DNA of 64,000 bases from Cellvibrio sp. KY-YJ-3 (GTDB taxonomy: Bacteria; Pseudomonadota; Gammaproteobacteria; Pseudomonadales; Cellvibrionaceae), in NCBI RefSeq assembly GCF_008806955.1, contig NZ_CP031727.1:4230001-4294000 (forward strand), written 5' to 3'. Positions 7,027-25,489 of the stretch are shown here, in pieces. The first letter of the stretch is position 1; every line of letters begins with the position of its first letter. Position numbers and translations under genes: made by a program. The notes under the pieces are model-generated. The model was not told the origin of the DNA. It saw only the letters and a list, made by a program, of their open reading frames with translations, and did no database searches.

Positions 7027-7878
7027 TTAGACCAGCACCACAGAAACATTGTCAATTAGTCGTGCGCCCTGGGTATACATGGCGCCGAGTATAGTGATCT
7101 CCCGATCATCGTGTGCCGCCATTTCCAGTGTGCGGCTATTGCAAATGCTGATGTAGTCCACCCGAAAACCCGCCGCTTCAATCTGCGCGCGCGCCTCGTC
7201 CACCAGCACTGAAAAATCGCGGCGACCATCAGTGATCGCCTGTTTGATCGCATTTAAACTGCGGTTGAGCACCGCGACCTTTGGGCGCTCGTCGGCAGTG
7301 ATAAAGCCATTGCGCGAGCTCATCGCCAGGCCGTCTTCCTCGCGAAAAATCTCACCAGCGGTGATTTTAATCGGAATACATAGGTCTTCCACCATGCGAC
7401 GAATAACCGCCAGCTGTTGAAAATCCTTGACGCCAAACACCGCTTCGTCCGGCTGCACAATATTAAACAACTTGGTGACTACGGTTGTCACGCCCTCAAA
7501 GTGGCCGGGGCGACTCGCACCGCAGAGTACATCGGTCATAGTTGGCACTATTACACGGGTCTGCTCGGCCATACCATTGGGGTAGATTTCTTTTTCATCG
7601 GGGCAAAACAGGTAGTTGCAACCTACCGCTTCCAATTTGGCCGAATCAGCTGCCAAGGTGCGCGGGTATTTATCCCAATCTTCATTCAAGCCAAATTGCA
7701 GCGGGTTGACAAAAATACTGGTCACTACCACATCGCAATTGCGCTGGGCGATTTTCACCAGCTCGATATGGGCACTGTGCAAGTTGCCCATAGTTGGCAC
7801 AAAACCAATACGTTTACCGGCTTTGCGCTCGGCCGCCAAGGCTTCACGAAGGGATTGAATGTGATGAAAAACCTGCAT
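7027..7878 (-). CDS. panC: Pantothenate synthetase (pantoate--beta-alanine ligase)
   Basis: Condenses pantoate and beta-alanine with ATP to give pantothenate. 283 residues, normal length. The [12 protein letters not shown] block contains the first ATP-binding (HIGH-like) motif, [10 protein letters not shown] the pantoate site, [16 protein letters not shown] the central conserved helix, and AMSSRNGFI the KMSKS-equivalent loop. panD lies directly downstream, so two successive-pathway enzymes form one unit. panB, usually the first gene of a panBC(D) operon, is not adjacent: the upstream neighbour is a MOSC protein. Confidence 0.97.
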
Positions 7879-15033: not shown

Positions 15034-18000
15034 ATGAAACTCAAACATTCGGCGAGTATCCATTCGCTGGCGCTGGCCATGTTCAGCCTCGGCGCGGCCA
15101 ATACCCTTGCGACAGACTACAACGACCCCTGGTGGGCAAGCCCCAATACCAATACCAGTTTTGTCGACCAGTTCGATGGAGTGAGCATCAACCGCAACAA
15201 ATGGTTGGTGGAGCAAAACATTTTTGTGAATGGCGAGGATATTGATTATCAGGATGTGGAATACCCCGCCGCTGACTGGACTTTTCGTGTCGGCCAACCC
15301 GATGCCGGTGCCACAGATGGCAAGGTACTCAACCTGAAAGCCCGCTATATGGATGGCCAGATCCAGGACTATTACGGTGGCACTGCCGGTCAGGGCAAGC
15401 CGCTGTTTATTCGCGCGGGCCGGATTGAATCGCAAATTACCGATGACTCCACCTTTGTGTATGGCAAATTTGAAGCGCGCATCAAAATGCCGCCGGCGCG
15501 CAACGCCGAATTCCCGGCCTGGTGGTTGTTGGGCAACTTTCCCGATGTGGGTTGGACTGCTTGCCAGGAGCTGGACATTATTGAGTTCACTGGCGCCAAT
15601 GTCAGTAAAGCGCCGCAAACCCATTGGTCGGCGCCCTACCCGGCCTATGGCGGCAACCCTTATGGCACCACTTACGCGCAACTGGGCATTAGCCCAAGCG
15701 ATGAATATGTCACTTACGGCGTGATCAAAACCCCGGAATCGGTCGATTACTACATCAACGGCGTTAAAACCTACAGCTGGACCAAAGCCGAGCGCGGCGA
15801 CCAGCCCTGGCCTTACCTCACCCCCATGCGCATGATCCTCAACCACGCCATCACCCATGTGGAATGGCCGGACGTGGGCAATTACAACCAATTCAGCACC
15901 AACGCCAATGTGGCCAACAAAACCGGTTATACCCGCGTCAATAACGGTGTGACCGAGTATGAATATTTGGATACCGCCGCGATGAACGCCAATATCGGTC
16001 GTGCGGGCACGGATTTCCTGGTCGATTACGTTGCCCACTGGCCACTGCCGACCACCGACACTTGGCACAAGTACATCGACGAGAGCAAATACAGCTTCTT
16101 CCGCCCCACCAATAACACCAAAGGTTTCTATTCGCTGAAAGGCTGGATGGCGCCGGTGTCCGTCAACGCAGATGCTTACTTACAAGAAGGTGATAACGCC
16201 TACCGCGATAACAGCGCCAAAAATGCCGCTGACGGCTATGTCGGCTCCAAGTGGGCAACCCCGCGCGACGACAATATGCATTCAGTCACCATCGACTACG
16301 GCGTGGACAAACCCATCAAATACTTCTGGATTGAATGGAGCTGGAACCTGCCCAAGTCTTACGACATCTTCGGTAAAACTGCGTCCGGCAACTGGGAATT
16401 TATCCTCAATTCAGAGCAGCAAAGTGTGGGTTGGGCGACACATACTTTTGATATAAACAAGACCTATCGCTACATCAAACTGGTCACCAAAGGTCGCATA
16501 GATAAAGCCGAGCCAATTTGGCTGCTGGAATTCAAAGCCTTTGAGGATGTGCCCAATGTATACCCCAAACCAGCGGGTACACCGGTGGTGGATCGCACCG
16601 TCAATATGCTTGGCAACGGCAACTTTGCCGACGGCCTGACCGGTTGGGGGAGCGAGAACTACGACGGTGCAGGCGCGACCTATAGCGTTATCAATGGTGA
16701 AGCGCGCATTACCGCCGCCACGCAAGGCACCGGGTCTGGCTCCTACCAGTTGCACACCCAGGGGTTTGGCCTGAAGCGCAACTATCGCTACCAGATCAGC
16801 TTCCGCGCCCGCGCTGAAACGCCGCGCAACATCCAACTGCGTCTGGCGGAAAACCAATTGAATCCATCACCGGCCGGAACCTATTTGCTGCAGACCATCG
16901 CCCTTGGTACCAGCATGACCAGCTACAGCTTTAACATCGATTTTACCGGTGGCGATAACCCCGGCCGCCTCGCCTTCCTGCTTGGCGCCATGGGTAATGC
17001 AACGACCTACATCGATGATGTGGTGATTAAAGAAATCGCCTACATAGGCTCCGGTGACCCGCTGGTTCCGGCAATTACCGCCACCGATTTCAGCGGCGCC
17101 AGCAGTGGCTGGGAAACTGACTGGTGGGGCGTAGCGCAACGCGCGGTGGATGGTGCAACCGGCAACAAAGCCAGCGGTAACGATGGTGTCGCCGAAGGTC
17201 AGGACTTGTGGGTGAGCGTGAACATCGATGCCAACTATGAAGTGAAAGAGGTACTGGTAGCGGGCGATAAATCCGCACCGCGCAGCCTCGCGCAGTTCAA
17301 AGTGGAATACGGCACCGCTAACAACACCCTGATCGACTGGAGCAACAGCAATACCGATGGCGCCTATGAAAGCTTCAGCAACTTCGTCGCCTACCCACCC
17401 GCGAATGAACGTCGCTTCCGCTTCTGGTTCCGCCCACCGGCAGGTCAATTGGTGGAAGTGGCCGATGTGCAGTTGATGGCCGTCGACCTGAAGCCCCACC
17501 GCATCTACACCATTAATTTGGACAACGGTGGCAGCATCAGCCCGGCGGACACCTTGCGCTACAGCAAAAACAACACCGATTCCGCGACCTACAGCTTCAC
17601 ACCGCCACCGGGTGGATCGGTCGCCAATGTGATAGTGGACGGCGTATCGCTCGGCGCTATGAACAGTTACACCTTCAATAATATTGCTGCCAGCCACACC
17701 ATCGCCGTCGCTTACAACACCACTGGCGCCAGCTCATCGGCGGCCAGCTCCAGTGCCCCCTCCTCTGCCTCGTCCAGCAGTTCGAGTGTGGCACCGGTAT
17801 TGTTATCCCAAGGCCGTCCGGTTACTGCCAGCAGCAACTTTCAACACGCAGCCAATGCAGTGGATGGCAACGGCGGCACGCGCTGGGAATCCACCCACGG
17901 TGTCAGCCCCAGTTGGATCATGGTGGATTTGGGCAGCAGCAAAAACCTGAGCCAGGTGATTATTGATTGGGAAGCGGCCAACGCCGCCAACTATCTGGTG

Positions 18001-18186
18001 CAGGCATCCAACAACGGCATGAGCTGGACCACCTTGAAAACCATCACCACTGGCGCCTTTGGTGATCGCACCGACACCCACAGCGTTGCAGGCAACTACC
18101 GCTATGTGCGCATTTATGCCACGGCACGCAGCGCAGGAAACCAATGGGGTTATTCAATTTGGGAACTGAAAATAACGGGTAATTAA
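15034..18186 (+). CDS. Secreted multimodular GH16 glucanase/agarase-type enzyme
   Basis: 1050 residues. Signal peptide to about residue 27. The GH16 jelly-roll spans about 35-350 with catalytic ELDIIE: Glu179 nucleophile, Asp181 and Glu184 acid/base. Downstream modules, read by eye, are: F5/8-type (CBM32-like) about 364-508; CBM4/9-like (NMLGNGNFADGLTGWG...) about 522-672; a second F5/8-like about 683-822; a small beta-repeat (YTINLDNGGSISP...) about 825-893; a polyserine linker about 899-920; and a C-terminal F5/8 module about 921-1050. GH16 covers beta-1,3-glucanases, lichenases, agarases and others. The binding modules and soil-type context suggest a beta-glucan, but the subfamily is not settled. 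A PEP-CTERM gene follows after a terminator. Confidence 0.88.
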   Translation: MKLKHSASIHSLALAMFSLGAANTLATDYNDPWWASPNTNTSFVDQFDGVSINRNKWLVEQNIFVNGEDIDYQDVEYPAADWTFRVGQPDAGATDGKVLNLKARYMDGQIQDYYGGTAGQGKPLFIRAGRIESQITDDSTFVYGKFEARIKMPPARNAEFPAWWLLGNFPDVGWTACQELDIIEFTGANVSKAPQTHWSAPYPAYGGNPYGTTYAQLGISPSDEYVTYGVIKTPESVDYYINGVKTYSWTKAERGDQPWPYLTPMRMILNHAITHVEWPDVGNYNQFSTNANVANKTGYTRVNNGVTEYEYLDTAAMNANIGRAGTDFLVDYVAHWPLPTTDTWHKYIDESKYSFFRPTNNTKGFYSLKGWMAPVSVNADAYLQEGDNAYRDNSAKNAADGYVGSKWATPRDDNMHSVTIDYGVDKPIKYFWIEWSWNLPKSYDIFGKTASGNWEFILNSEQQSVGWATHTFDINKTYRYIKLVTKGRIDKAEPIWLLEFKAFEDVPNVYPKPAGTPVVDRTVNMLGNGNFADGLTGWGSENYDGAGATYSVINGEARITAATQGTGSGSYQLHTQGFGLKRNYRYQISFRARAETPRNIQLRLAENQLNPSPAGTYLLQTIALGTSMTSYSFNIDFTGGDNPGRLAFLLGAMGNATTYIDDVVIKEIAYIGSGDPLVPAITATDFSGASSGWETDWWGVAQRAVDGATGNKASGNDGVAEGQDLWVSVNIDANYEVKEVLVAGDKSAPRSLAQFKVEYGTANNTLIDWSNSNTDGAYESFSNFVAYPPANERRFRFWFRPPAGQLVEVADVQLMAVDLKPHRIYTINLDNGGSISPADTLRYSKNNTDSATYSFTPPPGGSVANVIVDGVSLGAMNSYTFNNIAASHTIAVAYNTTGASSSAASSSAPSSASSSSSSVAPVLLSQGRPVTASSNFQHAANAVDGNGGTRWESTHGVSPSWIMVDLGSSKNLSQVIIDWEAANAANYLVQASNNGMSWTTLKTITTGAFGDRTDTHSVAGNYRYVRIYATARSAGNQWGYSIWELKITGN

Positions 18187-19039: not shown

Positions 19040-19561
19040 ATGATGGACACCCCAAATCCCTATACCCCACCCAACAGCAATCTTGAAAATAAAACGGATA
19101 TTCAAGACATAACACGGTACCGCAAAAAACTCATTCCGATGTGGATAAAAATATTTGGCTGGCTGTTTATCGTCATAGGTACAGCGGTGCCATTTGTAGG
19201 AATTTTCTCGGTGGTAACAGGCGTAGAGGGCAATTATTCTCTATATGGGCTTGAGGAGACCGGCAGCTTATTTTCGCCTATTCCATTACTGATAGTTACG
19301 CTGTTTGTAGTTCACTCTGTTTGCGCATTTGGGCTGCTGTTTGGAAAATCATGGGGCGTTAGGGCTTGTCTAATTCTGGCTTACATTAGCGTAGCAATTT
19401 GCTTATTCACTACATTTTCAGGAGATGGGAGTATTCGATTAGAGATCCTGTTACTTATTTTTTATATTTTAAAACTTCGTAAATTACAGCCCATTTGGTT
19501 TGGCCCTTTAACTGATGAAAATAGTGAATCTACACCTATTGGTACAGATGGGGTCAATTAA
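19040..19561 (+). CDS. Small membrane protein, unknown function (173 aa)
   Basis: 173 residues starting with a Pro/Asn-rich cytoplasmic segment (NPYTPPNSNLEN), a start often seen in small bacterial membrane proteins, followed by four hydrophobic segments at about 35-60, 78-100, 106-126 and 131-145. There is no recognisable domain. Two consecutive ATG codons make the exact start uncertain by one residue. Its base composition is AT-richer by eye than the peptidase gene that follows 2 bases after its stop codon. Confidence 0.65.
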   Translation: MMDTPNPYTPPNSNLENKTDIQDITRYRKKLIPMWIKIFGWLFIVIGTAVPFVGIFSVVTGVEGNYSLYGLEETGSLFSPIPLLIVTLFVVHSVCAFGLLFGKSWGVRACLILAYISVAICLFTTFSGDGSIRLEILLLIFYILKLRKLQPIWFGPLTDENSESTPIGTDGVN

Positions 19562-19563
19562 TA

Positions 19564-20844
19564 ATGACTTACCAAGGAAGCTGCCATCCCAGCGCAATAA
19601 AATGTGAAGTAAAAAACTGCAACGGCTCGATCTGCAATATAAGCGGTTTTTTACATTCGATCCGACTGCATCGCCTTTTCCTCCGATTGATCGTGATGTT
19701 AACGGGGCTCTTCATCCTGAACGCTGCTGCGCAGGAGGAACCGCGAGTACGAGCGCGAGATTTAGGTGTCGCACCGGGTATCTTCAGTCCTGGCACTAAC
19801 AACGCGATCACCGACGTCGCCGGTGTACGTGTCGGCCAGGTGACGCTGCGAAAAGGCGATAAGGTTCGTACCGGTGTCACCGCGATCCTGCCGCACCCCG
19901 GCAATGCCTACCGCTCACGGGTACCCGCTGCATTGCATGTAGGCAATGGCTTCGGCAAATTCATCGGCACCACCCAAATCAATGAGCTGGGCGAGTTGGA
20001 AAGCCCGATCTTGTTGACCTGCACCTTGTGCGTGTGGAAGGCGGCCGATGCCATGGTTGAGTGGATGCTGGCGCAACCGGATATGGAGCAGGTACGCTCG
20101 CTGAATGTGGTCGTGGGCGAGACTAATGACGGCAGACTCAATGACATACGCGCACGCCCGATCACCGCAGCTGCGGTGCGTACTGCATTGGAAAGCGCGA
20201 AGAGTGGGCCGGTGCAGGAAGGTAGCGTTGGTGCAGGCACCGGCACTACGGCATTCGGCTGGAAGGCAGGTATAGGAACGTCATCGCGCAAACTGCCCGA
20301 CAGCTTGGGTGGATTTACGGTGGGTGTGCTGGTACAGGCTAACTTCGGTGGAGTACTGCAGGTGGCAGGTGCGCCCGTGGGGCGTGAGCTGGATCGCTAT
20401 GCGTTCCAAAACGCAGTCGCTGCGCAAGAGAACACCCGTGGATTAGCCGATGACCGCGGCGATGGCTCAATCATTATTGTGATCGCCACCGATGCGCCCT
20501 TATCGGATCGCAATCTGCAGCGCTTGGCCTCACGCGGCATGATGGGATTGGGGCGTACCGGCAGTTCCGCATCCAACGGTAGCGGCGATTACATATTGGC
20601 ATTTTCGACTGCCGAATCGGTGCGACGCCAATTTGATGCGGCGCGGTTGCAAACTACCGAATTGGCGAACGAGCAAATGAGCGCTGTATTCCAGGCCAGC
20701 GTGGATGCAGTGGAAGAGTCGGTCTACAACGCCTTGTTTATGGCGACCACGGAAAGTGGCAATGGTCAAACAGTGGAGGCTATTCCGCTGGATCAGGTGC
20801 GGAAAGTGCTGAAGGCTCACGGTATAGAAGTACCTGCGCGATAG
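19564..20844 (+). CDS. P1-family (DmpA-like) peptidase fused to a GFA gene remnant
   Basis: Residues from about 58 to 426 form a DmpA/P1-type N-terminal-nucleophile aminopeptidase. ARDLGVAPGIFSPGTNNAITDVAGVRVGQVTL is the typical start, and GSVGAGTGTT is the autocleavage region before the nucleophile. A hydrophobic segment (LIVMLTGLFILNAAAQ) looks like a signal peptide, so export is likely. The first ~36 residues (MTYQGSCHPSAIK...NCNGSICNISGFLH) are not peptidase: they match the N-terminus of the GFA protein at 21596, with two zinc-ligand Cys replaced and about 10 residues missing. The frame is continuous from 19564. The true start may be 19564 (fusion) or an internal codon such as ATG 19696. 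Confidence 0.8.
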   Translation: MTYQGSCHPSAIKCEVKNCNGSICNISGFLHSIRLHRLFLRLIVMLTGLFILNAAAQEEPRVRARDLGVAPGIFSPGTNNAITDVAGVRVGQVTLRKGDKVRTGVTAILPHPGNAYRSRVPAALHVGNGFGKFIGTTQINELGELESPILLTCTLCVWKAADAMVEWMLAQPDMEQVRSLNVVVGETNDGRLNDIRARPITAAAVRTALESAKSGPVQEGSVGAGTGTTAFGWKAGIGTSSRKLPDSLGGFTVGVLVQANFGGVLQVAGAPVGRELDRYAFQNAVAAQENTRGLADDRGDGSIIIVIATDAPLSDRNLQRLASRGMMGLGRTGSSASNGSGDYILAFSTAESVRRQFDAARLQTTELANEQMSAVFQASVDAVEESVYNALFMATTESGNGQTVEAIPLDQVRKVLKAHGIEVPAR

Positions 20845-20897
20845 GCAGCGCAGATGCTCCTACATCTGCAACACCGAAAATCAAAGGACAATAAACA

Positions 20898-21593
20898 ATG
20901 TGGAAAGTATTAATAATTACATCAGTGCTATTCATTGCTGCCTGTAGCACCACAAAAATCCATGTTTACACATCGGGAATTGATCAGCCTACCCAACAGC
21001 AACTGCTTCAATCGTTAAACAATGCCGGTTTGAAGGCTCATCAACAGACAACCCCAATGCAGCCCCTCAAAGAAGGGGCTTATATCATTTACACACCCAA
21101 CTCTCGTTCAACGCAGATCAACCGAGAGATTGAACAGATTTTAAAATCATTAAATTTACCGGCACCTGAATCACGCCTGTTTAGTTTGGGCGAAGGAATT
21201 AGCGCACACCGATATACCAAAGGAAATATTGGCCTCTATGTGATCGCAAATACAAACCAACCAACAGATAGCTTAAAAAAAATACTGGAAGAAAGCAGTA
21301 TCTTGGATTGGGAGCTTGGTTCGATCAGCTGCACCCAAAATTACATTCTGGACATCATGGGCGATGGTAAAATTTACATAAGTACACTCGAAGATGGTAA
21401 AGAAATAACCTCACTCAACTGGAAAATACAAGATAAACAATTAGTGCTGACTAAATTATTTAACCGCTACGTTTACGACATTTCAGAAGAAAAGAAAATC
21501 ATAACACCGACTCAACAGTATCCCGAACCTTACGGCTGCCAATTCCGCAGCAACTTTGACACTGTCGTGCACGTAAAAAATATCAGGAATTAG
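20898..21593 (+). CDS. Predicted lipoprotein, unknown function (231 aa)
   Basis: 231 residues. The signal peptide ends in a lipobox (LFIAAC), predicting acylation of Cys16. The mature part is mixed alpha/beta; the first ~120 residues (IHVYTSGIDQPTQQQLLQSLNNAGLKAH...) recall sequences with an SPOR- or LytR-like two-strand repeat, but I do not recognise a family. The second half contains a beta-rich segment ending with a Cys (PYGCQF). It stops 2 bases before the intact GFA gene, the same spacing as the membrane protein in front of the GFA remnant. Confidence 0.65.
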   Translation: MWKVLIITSVLFIAACSTTKIHVYTSGIDQPTQQQLLQSLNNAGLKAHQQTTPMQPLKEGAYIIYTPNSRSTQINREIEQILKSLNLPAPESRLFSLGEGISAHRYTKGNIGLYVIANTNQPTDSLKKILEESSILDWELGSISCTQNYILDIMGDGKIYISTLEDGKEITSLNWKIQDKQLVLTKLFNRYVYDISEEKKIITPTQQYPEPYGCQFRSNFDTVVHVKNIRN

Positions 21594-21595
21594 TA

Positions 21596-21973
21596 ATGAT
21601 CTACCAAGGCAGCTGCCATTGCGGCGCAATAACATTTGAAGTGGAAGCCCCCGACGAAGTGGAAGTCGAAAACTGTAATTGTTCGATCTGCAATATGAGC
21701 GGTTTTTTACATTTGATTGTGCCGCAGCGCAGTTTTCGCCTCAGCAGTGGCGAGGACAACATCACTACTTACACATTCAACACCGGTGTAGCCAAGCACA
21801 AGTTTTGCAAAACCTGCGGTATCAAACCCTTTTACATTCCCCGCTCAAACCCGGATGGGGTGGATGTCAATTTGCGCTGCTTAACACCGCAGCCAAAAGC
21901 AGTAAAAATTGTGGCTTTTGACGGACAAAATTGGGAGCAACATGCTTATACCCTTGCGCATAAAAGCCTTTAA
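21596..21973 (+). CDS. GFA/CENP-V family zinc protein
   Basis: 125 residues. It has the Cys pattern of the GFA fold (glutathione-dependent formaldehyde-activating enzyme family): GSCHCGAITFEVE, NCNCSICNMSG and KFCKTCGIKPFYIPRS, giving two zinc sites. Members include Gfa and many proteins of unproven function; formaldehyde or other small electrophile handling is only a family-level guess. The first ~36 codons and the bases before the ATG have a degenerate copy at 19555-19672. Confidence 0.88.
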   Translation: MIYQGSCHCGAITFEVEAPDEVEVENCNCSICNMSGFLHLIVPQRSFRLSSGEDNITTYTFNTGVAKHKFCKTCGIKPFYIPRSNPDGVDVNLRCLTPQPKAVKIVAFDGQNWEQHAYTLAHKSL

Positions 21974-21983
21974 CCATGCAGGG

Positions 21984-22178
21984 TCAGGACTTATAACCAA
22001 GAATCCGCGATGGCAAGAATAAAAGCGCGCGCAAAAATGCAAACACCGCATCAAAGGCGATACCAAGGATGCGAAACGGAATAGAGATCAACCAGACAAT
22101 TGGCCAAAGTACCAAGGCGAGCAGCGCCAAGGGCCAACAGATTGCCCATAACAATAACCAGCAGATAAATGTGAGCAT
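21984..22178 (-). CDS. Small hydrophobic membrane protein (64 aa)
   Basis: 64 residues, almost entirely hydrophobic, with two probable membrane helices (about 3-35 and 38-57) and Trp-rich stretches (WLLLWAICWPLALLALVLW). It ends with a basic tail (PSRILGYKS). It is convergent with the GFA gene. The composition and the lack of a competing frame support it, but no family is recognised. Confidence 0.55.
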   Translation of the reverse strand: MLTFICWLLLWAICWPLALLALVLWPIVWLISIPFRILGIAFDAVFAFLRALLFLPSRILGYKS

Positions 22179-22297
22179 ACGCCCCCCGTTGTAAACATTG
22201 TTTTGGGATTAGATGCAGATTACAACAGATTAGATTCAGCTCAACCCTTTATAATGGTAAACCTTCGACAACCCTCTCCCAACGCCAGAGCCCTCCT

Positions 22298-22750
22298 ATG
22301 AAACCCATTCACCTTCCTGTGTTTGTTTTTGCCCTAAGCCTGATTGCCTGTAGCAGCCAACCACAGCCGCAAGAAAAAAGCTCAGAGGATGAACTGACAG
22401 ATGCGTTGGCGGCTGTTTTTGGTGAGCGTAAAAAGCCGGATATGAAAATGGTAGAAAAATACCCCTTGGGCACGGCGGAAAATCCTGTACGGGTGGCTAT
22501 GCCGATTGGTCAGCGGGATTATTTATCGCGTTTGGTGTGCAGCAACGGCGAGCAAGTTTCAGCATTTGCGCGCGAAGGTAGCGCAGGTATTGGTCCCTAT
22601 GGCTCGATGATAGATTCCTACACCGTCATTTGCGACACCTATCAGGGTGCGGTTGAGCACACAGTTTATTTGGATATGTATCACGGCGACTATGAAGAAA
22701 CGCGCCCGGCGCAGGGATTCAAAGCACTGCTACCCCAGAAAAACAATTAA
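22298..22750 (+). CDS. Predicted lipoprotein, unknown function (150 aa)
   Basis: 150 residues. Signal peptide with lipobox LSLIAC (Cys18), a Gln/Ser-rich spacer, then a compact domain with YPLGTAENPVRVAMPIGQRDYLSRLVCSNGE and a second Cys (VICDTYQG), which could form a disulfide. The domain is predicted beta-rich by composition. It is followed at 78 bases by a META-domain lipoprotein in the same direction. No family was recognised. Confidence 0.65.
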   Translation: MKPIHLPVFVFALSLIACSSQPQPQEKSSEDELTDALAAVFGERKKPDMKMVEKYPLGTAENPVRVAMPIGQRDYLSRLVCSNGEQVSAFAREGSAGIGPYGSMIDSYTVICDTYQGAVEHTVYLDMYHGDYEETRPAQGFKALLPQKNN

Positions 22751-22828
22751 CAAATTCGACCTAATGGCAACGCTATACTGGTTAGGCTTGTTCGTATCAA
22801 TAGGTGTTATCTACTCAAGGAGACTGCA

Positions 22829-23254
22829 ATGAAAACAACTCTGCTCTTGGTGTTGGCTATAGGTTTTATCAGCTTAACTGGCTGCACACACAACAACACC
22901 GGCACTGCCAGCTTGATCAATACCTATTGGAAACTGGTTGAAATAAAAGGTACCGCCGTGGCTGTCAGCGACAATCAGCGCGAGCCGCATATTGTGCTGA
23001 ACACGGAGCGGCGTGTAGCAGGCTCCGATGGTTGCAATCGCATGATGGGTGGCTATCAGGTGTCGGGCGATAAATTACAATTCACCCAAATGGCCGGTAC
23101 GCGCATGGCGTGCATGCAAGGTGCAGAACAAGCGCAGCTGATTGGCGCCACCCTGCCGAAGGTTGCCAGTTATGACATAGCTGGCGATCAACTGGAATTG
23201 CGCGATGCCGGGGGTGTAGCTATTGCACGCTTTAAAGCGGTTGCACTTCCCTGA
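22829..23254 (+). CDS. META/HslJ-domain lipoprotein
   Basis: 141 residues. Signal peptide with lipobox (FISLTGC), then a META domain: NTYWKLVEIKGTAV, RVAGSDGCNRMMGGYQVSGDKLQF and GTRMACM are the usual blocks, with the conserved GCNR. META-domain proteins such as HslJ are linked to heat and novobiocin tolerance, but the molecular role is not known. It converges on the second AraC regulator, whose stop codon is 25 bases away. Confidence 0.85.
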   Translation: MKTTLLLVLAIGFISLTGCTHNNTGTASLINTYWKLVEIKGTAVAVSDNQREPHIVLNTERRVAGSDGCNRMMGGYQVSGDKLQFTQMAGTRMACMQGAEQAQLIGATLPKVASYDIAGDQLELRDAGGVAIARFKAVALP

Positions 23255-23279
23255 TTTTTTTACGGCTAGCGTTTAAGGG

Positions 23280-24404
23280 CTAACCCTGCTGACGAAACTC
23301 GGTGGGCGTTACGCCCACCATGCGTTTGAAAAAACGGTGAAAAGCGGAGGGACTGTTAAAACCGGATTTATAGATAATCTCCAACACCGTTTCATTTTTA
23401 TAGTCGGGCGACAACAACAACCGTTTAGCTTCTTCCACACGGTAGCGATTAATAAATTCAAAAAAATTTGATTGGTAATGCATTTTTAAAATCGCGGAAA
23501 TGTCGCGCGGCTTTAATCCCGTCTGCTCTGCAAAACGCTCCAGGTTAATATTGCTCTCCAGGTACAACTTGTCTTCATTCATGGCTTTTTCAATAACTGC
23601 GACTTTGTGATCCATTTTGGTCGGCTGTATCGGCTTGGCAACCGGCATAGCGTTCACGCTGAGCAATTGACGGGTATTAATCAAACCAAATACAAATAAC
23701 GCGTTTACCAATATTACCGTTAGATAATTGTCGATAATTCCCAGGCTATCACTTACCCCGGCACTCACCTGCCCCTCAAGCACATAAGCCAGCAGCGACC
23801 ACAGCCAGTGAATACAGAAACCTGCAAGCACTGCATCTGCCAATTTCAATTCAGACATGGAAATAGCTGAATAAAGTGCTTTCAAGTTCTCACGCAATTT
23901 ATATTCGGCGATAACACAGGCAACGATGTAACCCAGCGGGGATATTTTTACCAGCGCCCAAATAAAAGCAACCGCCGTATTTTCCGCCCCAACCAATTCT
24001 GTTGTTGGCCACCATTCAAGGCTATTAATATCAAATAAAACCAATAACAGCGCCGCCACCAGTGCCGGTACTAAATGCAGAAAATTCCACCATCGCAACA
24101 ACTGCATTTTTTGTGATAAAGAGCGCAAATAAAAATACAGCACCGGCCCCTGCAATAATAAACACACCGCAAGAATCGTAACAACCAATGGCGACTGATT
24201 GATAGCCGCACCTTTTAAATCGCCATTCCAGACAATGAGCGTAGTAGTTAGCACCAGTGCGATTAACACGAAAAAAGCAGAGAGAATTCGACGCGGCTGC
24301 AGGTGCTTGGCGGGTAACAAATTCAGTAGCGCAGCCAATACACAACACTCAAGGGCGGTAAGCAGCAACACCACGTCGTGAATATTTAGAAAGTTGGTTT
24401 TCAT
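23280..24404 (-). CDS. AraC-family regulator with N-terminal membrane domain (paralogue 2)
   Basis: 374 residues, the same plan as the protein at 13516-14694: about seven hydrophobic segments in the first ~240 residues (NIHDVVLLLTALECCVLAALLNLLP at the start) and a C-terminal AraC HTH domain (INLERFAEQTGLKPRDISAIL; LEIIYKSGFNSPSAFHRFFKRMVGVTPTEFRQ). Many blocks are shared almost unchanged with paralogue 1, for example LLLQGPVLYFYLRSLS and GIIDNYLTVILVN. An in-frame start at 24422 exists, but the ATG at 24404 has a GAAAGG ribosome-binding site. Its target genes are not evident; the region upstream contains a perfect 12-bp inverted repeat. Confidence 0.9.
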   Translation of the reverse strand: MKTNFLNIHDVVLLLTALECCVLAALLNLLPAKHLQPRRILSAFFVLIALVLTTTLIVWNGDLKGAAINQSPLVVTILAVCLLLQGPVLYFYLRSLSQKMQLLRWWNFLHLVPALVAALLLVLFDINSLEWWPTTELVGAENTAVAFIWALVKISPLGYIVACVIAEYKLRENLKALYSAISMSELKLADAVLAGFCIHWLWSLLAYVLEGQVSAGVSDSLGIIDNYLTVILVNALFVFGLINTRQLLSVNAMPVAKPIQPTKMDHKVAVIEKAMNEDKLYLESNINLERFAEQTGLKPRDISAILKMHYQSNFFEFINRYRVEEAKRLLLSPDYKNETVLEIIYKSGFNSPSAFHRFFKRMVGVTPTEFRQQG

Positions 24405-24426
24405 TAGACCTTTCTCGCACACAGAA

Positions 24427-24466
24427 ATACCGCCACCTTTTCCGGTGACAAAACAGGTGGCGGTAT
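24427..24466 (-). terminator. 12-bp inverted repeat between DUF3012 and AraC genes
   Basis: ATACCGCCACCT (24427-24438) and AGGTGGCGGTAT (24455-24466) pair perfectly around a 16-base loop. On the minus strand it lies after the DUF3012 stop and 22 bases before the AraC start. It is followed by only ATTTCTGT, so it is a weak terminator by T-run and could equally be a regulatory leader of the AraC gene. Confidence 0.55.
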
Positions 24467-24532
24467 CATCAGGAATTGAATTAGAGCGAATGACAAATGG
24501 CGTGATTTTAGTAAACGATTTACTTCACGTTA

Positions 24533-24709
24533 TTATTTAAATACACAATGCTTGGCGTAATCCTTGGCTTCATTCATCGTCATCTCGCCCTTGGGTTTGG
24601 TTTCGATGGATTTACACCAATCAGGGCTGCCCACTTCGGGCGCACAAGCAGAGAGCAAACTCGCAGCAGCGAGCAGAGGTAATGATTTAACGACAGGTAG
24701 AATTTTCAT
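24533..24709 (-). CDS. DUF3012-type small lipoprotein (58 aa)
   Basis: 58 residues, easily missed because of its length. Sequence features: signal peptide MKILPVVKSLPLLAAASLL, lipobox LLSAC (Cys22), then APEVGSPDWCKSIETKPKG and a conserved end NEAKDYAKHC. This matches the small DUF3012 lipoproteins as I remember them, with two further Cys that could form a disulfide. The function is unknown. A GGGGATG stretch lies 6 bases before the ATG. The gene lies just downstream of rlmB on the same strand. Confidence 0.75.
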   Translation of the reverse strand: MKILPVVKSLPLLAAASLLSACAPEVGSPDWCKSIETKPKGEMTMNEAKDYAKHCVFK

Positions 24710-24748
24710 AACAACATCCCCGGGTTTTATTATAAGAGATCAATGTTT

Positions 24749-25489
24749 TTAACTGCGACGCTGGCGCACCGCTTCAAACAAACAAATACCGGTAGCGACC
24801 GAAACATTCAAACTGCTCACTGTGCCGGCCATCGGAATATTCATTAAATGATCGCAGGTGTCTTGTGTAAGCCGGCGCAAACCATCTCCTTCAGCCCCCA
24901 TTAAAATACCAATTGGCCCCTTGAGGTTGGATTGGTAAATAGAATGCTCCGCGTCGCCCGCCGCACCAAATAACCAGATGCCTTTTTCCTGCAATTTTTT
25001 CAGGGTACGCGCCAAATTAGTCACGGGCACAAAAGGTAAAACCTCGGCGGCACCGCATGCCACTTTGCGCGCAATCGGCGTGAGGCCAGCGGATTTATCT
25101 TTTGGCGCAATGACCGCATGCACACCCGCCGCTTCCGCTGAACGCATGCAGGCGCCCAAATTATGCGGGTCAGTGACACCATCCAGAATTAATAAAAACG
25201 CAGGCTCATTGAGATTATCAAGCAAATTAAACAACCAGGTTTCGTCGTAGGTTTCGCCGGGTGTGCATACCGCCACCACCCCCTGATGATTTTCATCGCT
25301 CACCAACTCATCCAGTTTATTGCGATTAACCACCTGGCAGTGAATACCATTACTCTGCGCCGCATTCACAATTTTTTGCAGTTTCTGATCGTTGCGCCCC
25401 TGCACCATGTAAATTTCAATCACACGCTGGGGTGCGCTTTTCAGCAGCGCCTGCACTGCGTGCAAGCCAAATATAAATTCACGTTTCAA
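24749..25489 (-). CDS. rlmB: 23S rRNA (guanosine-2'-O-)-methyltransferase RlmB
   Basis: Methylates the 2'-O of G2251 (E. coli numbering) in the 23S peptidyl-transferase P loop. 246 residues: an N-terminal substrate-binding domain (FIFGLHAVQALL) and a C-terminal SPOUT domain with the trefoil-knot motifs DGVTDPHNLGACMRSAEAAGV, GILMGAEGDGL and IPMAGTVSSLNVSVATGICLFE. It lies downstream of rnr on the same strand, the usual order. Confidence 0.97.
   Translation of the reverse strand: MKREFIFGLHAVQALLKSAPQRVIEIYMVQGRNDQKLQKIVNAAQSNGIHCQVVNRNKLDELVSDENHQGVVAVCTPGETYDETWLFNLLDNLNEPAFLLILDGVTDPHNLGACMRSAEAAGVHAVIAPKDKSAGLTPIARKVACGAAEVLPFVPVTNLARTLKKLQEKGIWLFGAAGDAEHSIYQSNLKGPIGILMGAEGDGLRRLTQDTCDHLMNIPMAGTVSSLNVSVATGICLFEAVRQRRS

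Follow-up and report, generated by a model that had tools for sequence, protein, structure and literature searches.

We describe a chimeric gene of Cellvibrio sp. KY-YJ-3 in which an S58 (DmpA-type) peptidase of Lysobacteraceae type begins with the 5′ end of a GFA-family gene. The gene lies at 19564–20844 on the forward strand of the window, the 64,000-nucleotide stretch (contig NZ_CP031727.1, positions 4,230,001 to 4,294,000) whose numbering is used throughout. Its 5′ end is GFA-derived, and its body is foreign. It occupies the same locus in two further Cellvibrio genomes, G001 and G007, and diverges little among the three; the native start of the peptidase is present in G007 and missing from the window and G001. 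We consider it likely that a duplicated GFA gene supplied the 5′ end onto which a foreign S58 peptidase was fused, that the peptidase captured the GFA start, and that the chimera was later exchanged between Cellvibrio species.

A peptidase gene with a GFA-derived 5′ end

19556 to 19563, forward strand: GFA-type leader, the 8 bases before the chimeric ATG, aligned to the intact GFA gene; holds the stop codon of the open reading frame (ORF) at 19040
19564 to 19662, forward strand: about 33 codons of GFA origin, among them the chimeric start codon, with an in-frame gap of 24 bases, from the alignment; shared with G001, shorter in G007
19663 to 20841, forward strand: S58 (DmpA-type) peptidase of Lysobacteraceae origin, including the signal-peptide-like RLHRLFLRLIVMLTGLFILNAAAQ, from Pfam, PDB, relatives, the tree and native N-termini
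20467 to 20469, forward strand: codon of Ser302, the expected N-terminal nucleophile after Gly301-Ser302 self-cleavage, from alignment to DmpA (1b65)
20842 to 20857, forward strand: peptidase stop codon and 13 more bases, the end of the tract shared with G001, from blastn
21596 to 21973, forward strand: intact GFA gene, Pfam PF04828 at 5.2e-16 over residues 3-98

The chimera is a single open frame of 426 codons. Its bases 19556–19661 can be aligned to 21588–21717 of the intact GFA gene with a score reached by 0 of 1,000 shuffles. Across the whole genome (4.49 Mb, one contig), the remnant has only two matches at E ≤ 0.001, namely itself and the intact GFA gene (1.1e-13). A single 24-base gap converts E15-V16-[E17..V24]-E25-N26 of the intact protein into E15-V16-K17-N18, and in the GFA sequence, as judged by eye, it is bounded by the imperfect direct repeats GAAGTGGAA and GAAGTCGAA, at a distance of 24 bases. 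Two GFA cysteines are gone from the remnant (C9 to P and C29 to G), and one new cysteine, C14, has appeared. GFA proteins are glutathione-dependent formaldehyde-activating enzyme-like, and their Cys pairs are presumably metal-binding. The intact translation has both the family profile and the Cys pairs, in CHC, CNCSIC and CKTC; the chimera gives no Pfam GFA match at E ≤ 0.1 and lacks a complete GFA domain with its Cys pairs.

A first-pass annotation of this DNA had reported the deletion of about 24 bases and the loss of two cysteines, and the alignment bears out both. It had also matched about 36 codons and the bases before the ATG to GFA; the match stands, with its extent now about 33 codons and 8 leader bases. 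Its impression by eye that the peptidase is richer in G+C (GC) agrees with the computed 58.6% for the peptidase body (62% at third codon positions, GC3) versus 40–47% in adjacent genes: 40.2% in the ORF at 19040, 40.3% in ORF20898, 47.2% in the intact GFA gene and 44.6% in the AraC-type gene. The GFA-derived part of the chimera has 41.7%. GC alone is no proof of foreign origin, because the glycoside hydrolase-like (GH-like) gene at 15034 is likewise GC-rich (55.7%). The two parts of the chimera also differ in constraint. Between the window and G001, nonsynonymous (dN) and synonymous (dS) divergence are 0.004 and 0.206 in the peptidase body, and 0.147 and 0.235 over 32 codons of the weakly constrained GFA part. 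The peptidase body is under strong purifying selection, and the GFA part is not.

The identity of the peptidase is clear from its Pfam Peptidase_S58 (PF03576) match at 1.1e-113, which spans residues 80-403 and positions 1-306 of the 307 in the profile. The best-matching solved chains include 2drh, DmpA (1b65) and BapA (3n2w), and the whole catalytic part can be aligned with these DmpA/BapA-type enzymes. Both the Gly-Ser site and the counterpart of Asn218 are conserved, with Gly301-Ser302 and Asn260 standing opposite Gly249-Ser250 and Asn218 of DmpA in the alignment; we take Ser250 to be the DmpA nucleophile. The window peptidase differs from these enzymes in having the signal-peptide-like stretch before its catalytic part, with about 33 residues of GFA origin before that, and in having Asn where DmpA has Tyr146. 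The signal-peptide-like stretch was read from the sequence, not by a signal-peptide program; the most hydrophobic 11 residues start at residue 42 in the window protein and at residue 12 in that of Stenotrophomonas terrae (S. terrae). The accessible part of a study of DmpA relatives names Asn218 as the active-centre Asn, describes the Tyr146 position as variable, and places the cleavage of a reconstructed relative just before SIIVVIATDA (PMC9570944). The window peptidase has SIIIVIATDA at that position, and self-cleavage at Gly301-Ser302 would be expected of it. In NCBIfam, no family was found at E ≤ 0.01 for the four proteins tried.

Right after the peptidase stop lies an inverted repeat, GCAGATG-CTCCTA-CATCTGC (20850–20869), which G007 shares with one change. 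A dispersed repeat element at this point was considered and rejected: the 65 bases 20835–20899 are convincingly placed once in the genome, at their own site, with two other matches at E 0.88 and 3.1.

Source of the peptidase

A scan of GTDB contigs returned 66 loci with the peptidase. Besides Cellvibrio sp. UBA7671, the best relatives are Stenotrophomonas and Pseudoxanthomonas, with 76–89% identity in their best segment. A 37-row tree, built from the window, G001, G007 and 34 of those 66 loci, groups the three Cellvibrio peptidases as a single clade (100/100) that falls within Lysobacteraceae (18-row set, 98/97). By path length, S. terrae and Stenotrophomonas sp. PS02298 are closest to them. 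Because the fork to S. terrae is weak (84/66), we state the donor only as Lysobacteraceae, Stenotrophomonas-like.

Donor-type loci have an order and a start of their own. The genes rnr, rlmB and the peptidase follow one another on one strand in 17 of 69 loci (L066–L069 and L071–L083), all named Stenotrophomonas or Pseudoxanthomonas; L070 starts at the peptidase, so its upstream order is not readable. Donor-type proteins begin with MPRTPHRLF.., MLHAPHRL.. and similar sequences behind a Shine-Dalgarno-like (SD-like) leader, and tblastn matches of the peptidase extend to residue 1 in some of these loci. In the 18 donor-type loci nothing matches the remnant DNA at E ≤ 1, and the single hit to its 33 residues (E 0.30) is at chance level and distant from the peptidase. 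The first-pass annotation had reasoned that an N-terminus common to all orthologues would speak against a recent chimera; only the Cellvibrio copies carry the GFA-like N-terminus.

Several routes of entry were considered. A plasmid origin was rejected: in blastn against plasmids, the peptidase body matched 12 of 72,556 records, with at most 40% covered and 60–80% identity, and no vehicle emerged. In the window the acquired peptidase lies about 4 kb downstream of the Cellvibrio rlmB, in opposite orientation (19564–25489). The chance of a random insertion within 5,185 bases either side of rlmB is about 0.23%, a figure judged after the fact. An import anchored in rlmB is suggested by the donor order rnr-rlmB-peptidase together with this recipient site. 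We did not adopt it because of the opposite orientation, the five genes between, and rlmB proteins that are just 45–48% identical.

In 6 of the 18 donor-type loci (L072–L076 and L083 3761–4234), all Pseudoxanthomonas, the stretch from rnr to rlmB ahead of the peptidase also contains a GFA-family gene. By tblastn it is 26–30% identical to the window GFA, and the two copies tested match Pfam GFA at 1e-19 and 2e-19. Derivation of the remnant from this gene is ruled out: its DNA scores 16–22 against the remnant versus 108 for the window's own GFA, and the longest likeness runs for 20–24 bases at 83–90% (E 0.21–0.72). An import anchored in GFA is a lead; it may be chance or may hint at a route of DNA uptake. 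Chance placement in a GFA gene near rlmB is possible because genomes can hold more than one GFA-family gene, and our genus search gave up to three GFA matches per genome at E ≤ 1e-20.

Three chimeras at one locus

Of 144 genomes in the family, six have the peptidase body at E ≤ 1e-60: three Cellvibrio genomes (window, G001 and G007, 97–100%) and three outside the genus at 46–55%. The chimera is present in 3 of 21 genus genomes, each time at the same locus, and in none of the other 18, some of which are incomplete assemblies. The event is not private to the window genome, being found in G001 and G007 too. In G001 the GFA part spans the same 33 codons, and C9 is retained. G007 has a shorter GFA stub followed by CTCATGCCCCGCAGACTACATCGCC, a donor-type start. 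Across the G007 junction, TGTAAAGAACCTC followed by ATGCCCCGCA, 20 of 23 bases match the TGTAAGGAACACC followed by ATGCCCCGCA of S. terrae. Thus G007 keeps the native start together with some of the native leader, whereas the window and G001 have lost both and retain more GFA than G007. Two histories fit this pattern. The ancestor may have had the long GFA part along with the native start, with differing in-frame losses later; or the G007 joint may be the older, and the window and G001 may have regained GFA by conversion from an intact copy.

The chimera is far less diverged than its surroundings. By blastn, window 19557–20857 corresponds to G001 L053 5814–7114 at 94%, a tract from 7 bases before the ATG to 13 after the stop. 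Between the window and G001, dS is 0.206 for the peptidase and 0.97 for rnr, 0.94 for GFA, 1.16 for the GH-like gene, 1.81 for rlmB and 1.81 for AraC. Between the window and G007 it is 0.37 for the peptidase and 0.39 for ORF20898, versus 0.97 for rnr, 1.14 for ORF22298, 1.50 for rlmB, 1.85 for AraC and 1.79 for META. Values for the PEP-CTERM gene with G007 (dN 1.4, alignment crossing a frame break) and for AraC with G004 and META with G001 (both saturated) were left out. As a control we used 21 pairs from seven Lysobacteraceae loci, out of 17 with all three genes. In these the proportion of synonymous differences (pS) of the peptidase is 0.99–3.92 times that of rlmB and 1.05–1.40 times that of rnr; in Cellvibrio it is 0.26–0.54 times. 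Since most linked genes have a much higher dS (about 0.9–1.9) than the peptidase, the chimera probably moved between Cellvibrio species and is not of fresh origin.

Relationships point the same way. By dN of rnr, rlmB and AraC, G007 is closer to the window than G001 is (rnr dN 0.022 versus 0.046); by the peptidase, G001 is the closer. Of 96 bases, the G001 remnant shares 78 with the window's intact GFA and 71 with the intact GFA of G001 itself, a difference that, on these small counts, would fit arrival from a window-like lineage. The GH-like gene (15034–18186) is near-identical in G007 (98% protein, dS 0.118), and we read it as having been exchanged at this locus too, in a separate and later event.

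Where translation would begin

Predicted pairing with the 16S tail at the GFA ATG is −5.4 kcal/mol in the window, −5.1 in G001 and −2.9 in G007, and the native ATG of G007 has −0.9. Internal starts at codons 42, 44 and 45 of the window and G001 give +0.3 to +1.9 kcal/mol, with no SD-like pairing. Among the starts tested in these two genomes, an SD-like sequence is thus found at the GFA ATG only, as the first-pass annotation's chimeric start would have it. In the window this is the GGGG at 19550–19553, just upstream of the GFA-matched leader and within the final part of the ORF at 19040; the equivalent bases of G001 sit inside a 67-base match (84%) to the GFA gene and leader of G019. A start at M45 would cut off the basic residues before the hydrophobic core. 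Because of that loss and the SD-like pairing, we infer initiation at 19564 and its G001 equivalent, and since the native start codon and leader are gone from both genomes, translation there is most likely from the GFA ATG. That the frame is open in three genomes is weak evidence of use, because the chance of this is not small.

Duplicated GFA genes and variable cargo

Searching the genus for GFA yielded 27 matches, spread over 19 of 21 genomes. We took 12 regions, namely GFA matches of 56–92% identity, plus G007 for its peptidase, and excluded weaker matches. Ten genomes have this GFA type (window, G001, G004, G007, G011, G013, G014, G015, G019 and G020). More than one GFA copy or piece beside unrelated genes is clear in three of the ten (window, G014 and G001), with G007 a probable fourth. 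G014 has two intact copies (dS 0.128). G001 has the remnant, an intact GFA gene and a decayed copy (L053 7629–7739 including upstream sequence, the copy itself at about 7677–7739), whose score 0 of 1,000 shuffles reach. About 55 upstream bases are shared between the decayed and intact copies, and on this arrangement we read the pair as a tandem duplication. No GFA match at E ≤ 1e-20 was found in G007. At L054 7913–8179, G007 has a second GFA seemingly cut to its first codons (ATGATTCATCAGGG..) and followed by other sequence; it scores 37 versus a maximum of 34 in 1,000 shuffles. It sits where an uninterrupted match to the window, extending across ORF20898 into the GFA start, comes to its end. 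The first-pass annotation had proposed that the GFA gene was duplicated and the peptidase then inserted into one copy. Comparison across the genus gives three carriers of the peptidase among 21 genomes, and extra GFA copies at the locus. Duplication and the joining of a foreign peptidase are upheld, and their proposed order is the likeliest one.

Two further ORFs adjoin the chimera in the window:

19040 to 19561, forward strand: small ORF from the ORF list, ending 2 bases before the chimeric ATG
20898 to 21593, forward strand: ORF20898, with no Pfam family, a lipoprotein-like N-terminus by eye, and low divergence to G007

The ORF at 19040 has no match in the other 20 genus genomes searched, and PADLOC reports nothing for it or for ORF20898. 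ORF20898 precedes GFA in the window, G004 and G014.

All three chimeras lie between GH/PEP-CTERM genes and META/AraC. These conserved flanks, seen in part of the 12 regions and not in G005, G006, G017 and G020, enclose cargo that varies by genome, as in a hotspot:

ORF20898: window, G004, G014 and G007
AAA ATPase and DUF4276 pair: L056 10874 to 12573 (G014) and L057 287 to 1986 (G011); PADLOC best match HEC-01A/HEC-01B in G014, G011 by protein clustering
TonB-type receptor and AraC-type regulator: G013
histidine kinase: G007
ORFs without Pfam match: G001, G014 and G019

The AAA ATPase and DUF4276 genes form a candidate defence pair, directly upstream of ORF20898 or its remnant. Among 17 locus proteins scanned with Pfam there is no recombinase and no integrase; no dedicated attC/integrase search was made.

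Discussion

The reading we favor may be set out as follows. A Cellvibrio ancestor would have had a duplicated GFA gene at this locus, perhaps as an ORF20898-GFA pair. A Lysobacteraceae fragment with the S58 peptidase, its upstream edge at the rlmB stop codon or close to it, would have been fused to one GFA copy within that copy's 5′ part, and the copy's remainder would have been lost. In the window/G001 type, the peptidase would then have come to rely on the GFA start after loss of its native start and leader. The predicted product is an exported, self-cleaving aminopeptidase with a long amino-terminal extension. Finally, the chimera, in G007 together with ORF20898, would have passed between Cellvibrio species without changing its chromosomal position; homologous recombination across shared flanks would be the simplest route.

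Several observations weigh against parts of this account. Downstream of the peptidase no convincing GFA 3′ half was found (best E 0.20), so a clean insertion is unlikely. The start codon is GFA-derived, but in the window the ribosome-binding bases fall outside the GFA-matched leader. In G007 the native ATG persists, and the stub could be untranslated. The shared VKN codons could be of either GFA or donor-leader origin. The low divergence between the window and G007 is not special to the chimera, because the GH-like gene has a lower dS still. Lastly, just three chimeras are known, and the order of events given here is only the likeliest one.

Some of these points would also suit a decaying or untranslated GFA leader, with the peptidase started internally (at codons 42–45 in the window, at the native ATG in G007) and the open frame a matter of luck. 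The weak constraint on the GFA part and the donor-like leader before the native ATG of G007 agree with this view. Yet codons 42, 44 and 45 have no SD-like pairing and would lose the basic part of the signal-peptide-like stretch, and all three genomes have an open frame starting at the GFA ATG despite 33-base length differences, itself weak evidence; we regard such a leader as rather unlikely. Vertical inheritance of one old insertion, lost in most species and held at low divergence by synonymous-site constraint, would readily place three copies at the same locus between GH/PEP-CTERM and META/AraC. The Lysobacteraceae control, in which the peptidase shows no such slow synonymous change, argues against it, as do the conflict between the closest gene (G001) and the closest genome by linked proteins (G007) and the absence of the peptidase from most of the genus, some incomplete assemblies included. 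We consider this history very unlikely. A site-specific mobile unit, with the GFA start as an attachment-like site and each insertion restoring GFA on one side while leaving a 5′ fragment on the other, would account for the fragment-cargo-intact GFA layout of the window and for borders near the GFA ATG in several genomes. The Pfam scan of 17 locus proteins yielded no recombinase, however; the two full-length copies of G014 and the shared upstream bases of G001 fit tandem duplication better; and leaders differ between genome groups. Such a unit seems highly improbable.

Capture of a GFA start by a foreign peptidase, as we favor it, is a known kind of event, namely horizontal transfer with start capture at a gene-turnover locus, and no new kind of system. 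No description of this locus was found among the matches listed for literature on Cellvibrio gene transfer, chimeric gene starts and DmpA (titles and abstracts). Hotspots renewed through recombination at core genes are known, as the accessible part of one article relates (PMC5635113). Like turnover hotspots, the locus has one place with different cargo between Cellvibrio genomes, probable interspecies exchange and no mobile element among the scanned proteins; unlike them, it has a repeated gene (GFA) inside the variable region, itself duplicated and broken. Arrays of successive displacement of effector and immunity genes in Vibrio cholerae, as the available portion of PMC5361080 presents them, likewise leave older gene copies behind with each addition; unlike those arrays, the locus shows no effector or immunity genes, and its leftover is a GFA-family gene. 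Homology-facilitated illegitimate recombination, in the portion of PMC3240628 at hand, would let foreign DNA be linked with no homology on one side, the situation seen at the GFA/peptidase joint; here, by contrast, no homologous donor anchor is established.

A broader reading is that GFA starts serve as a repeated docking point, with duplicated GFA genes giving homology for uptake and a ready start codon. We think this unlikely; if it were true, cargo would be expressed at once as a GFA-headed chimera and could circulate among species by recombination between GFA copies. The locus offers a readable case of a foreign bacterial gene gaining a local translation start. The donor order, the donor start and leader, the intermediate-like G007 and the apparently dependent window and G001 can be compared side by side, in a chimeric gene that seems to travel between species.

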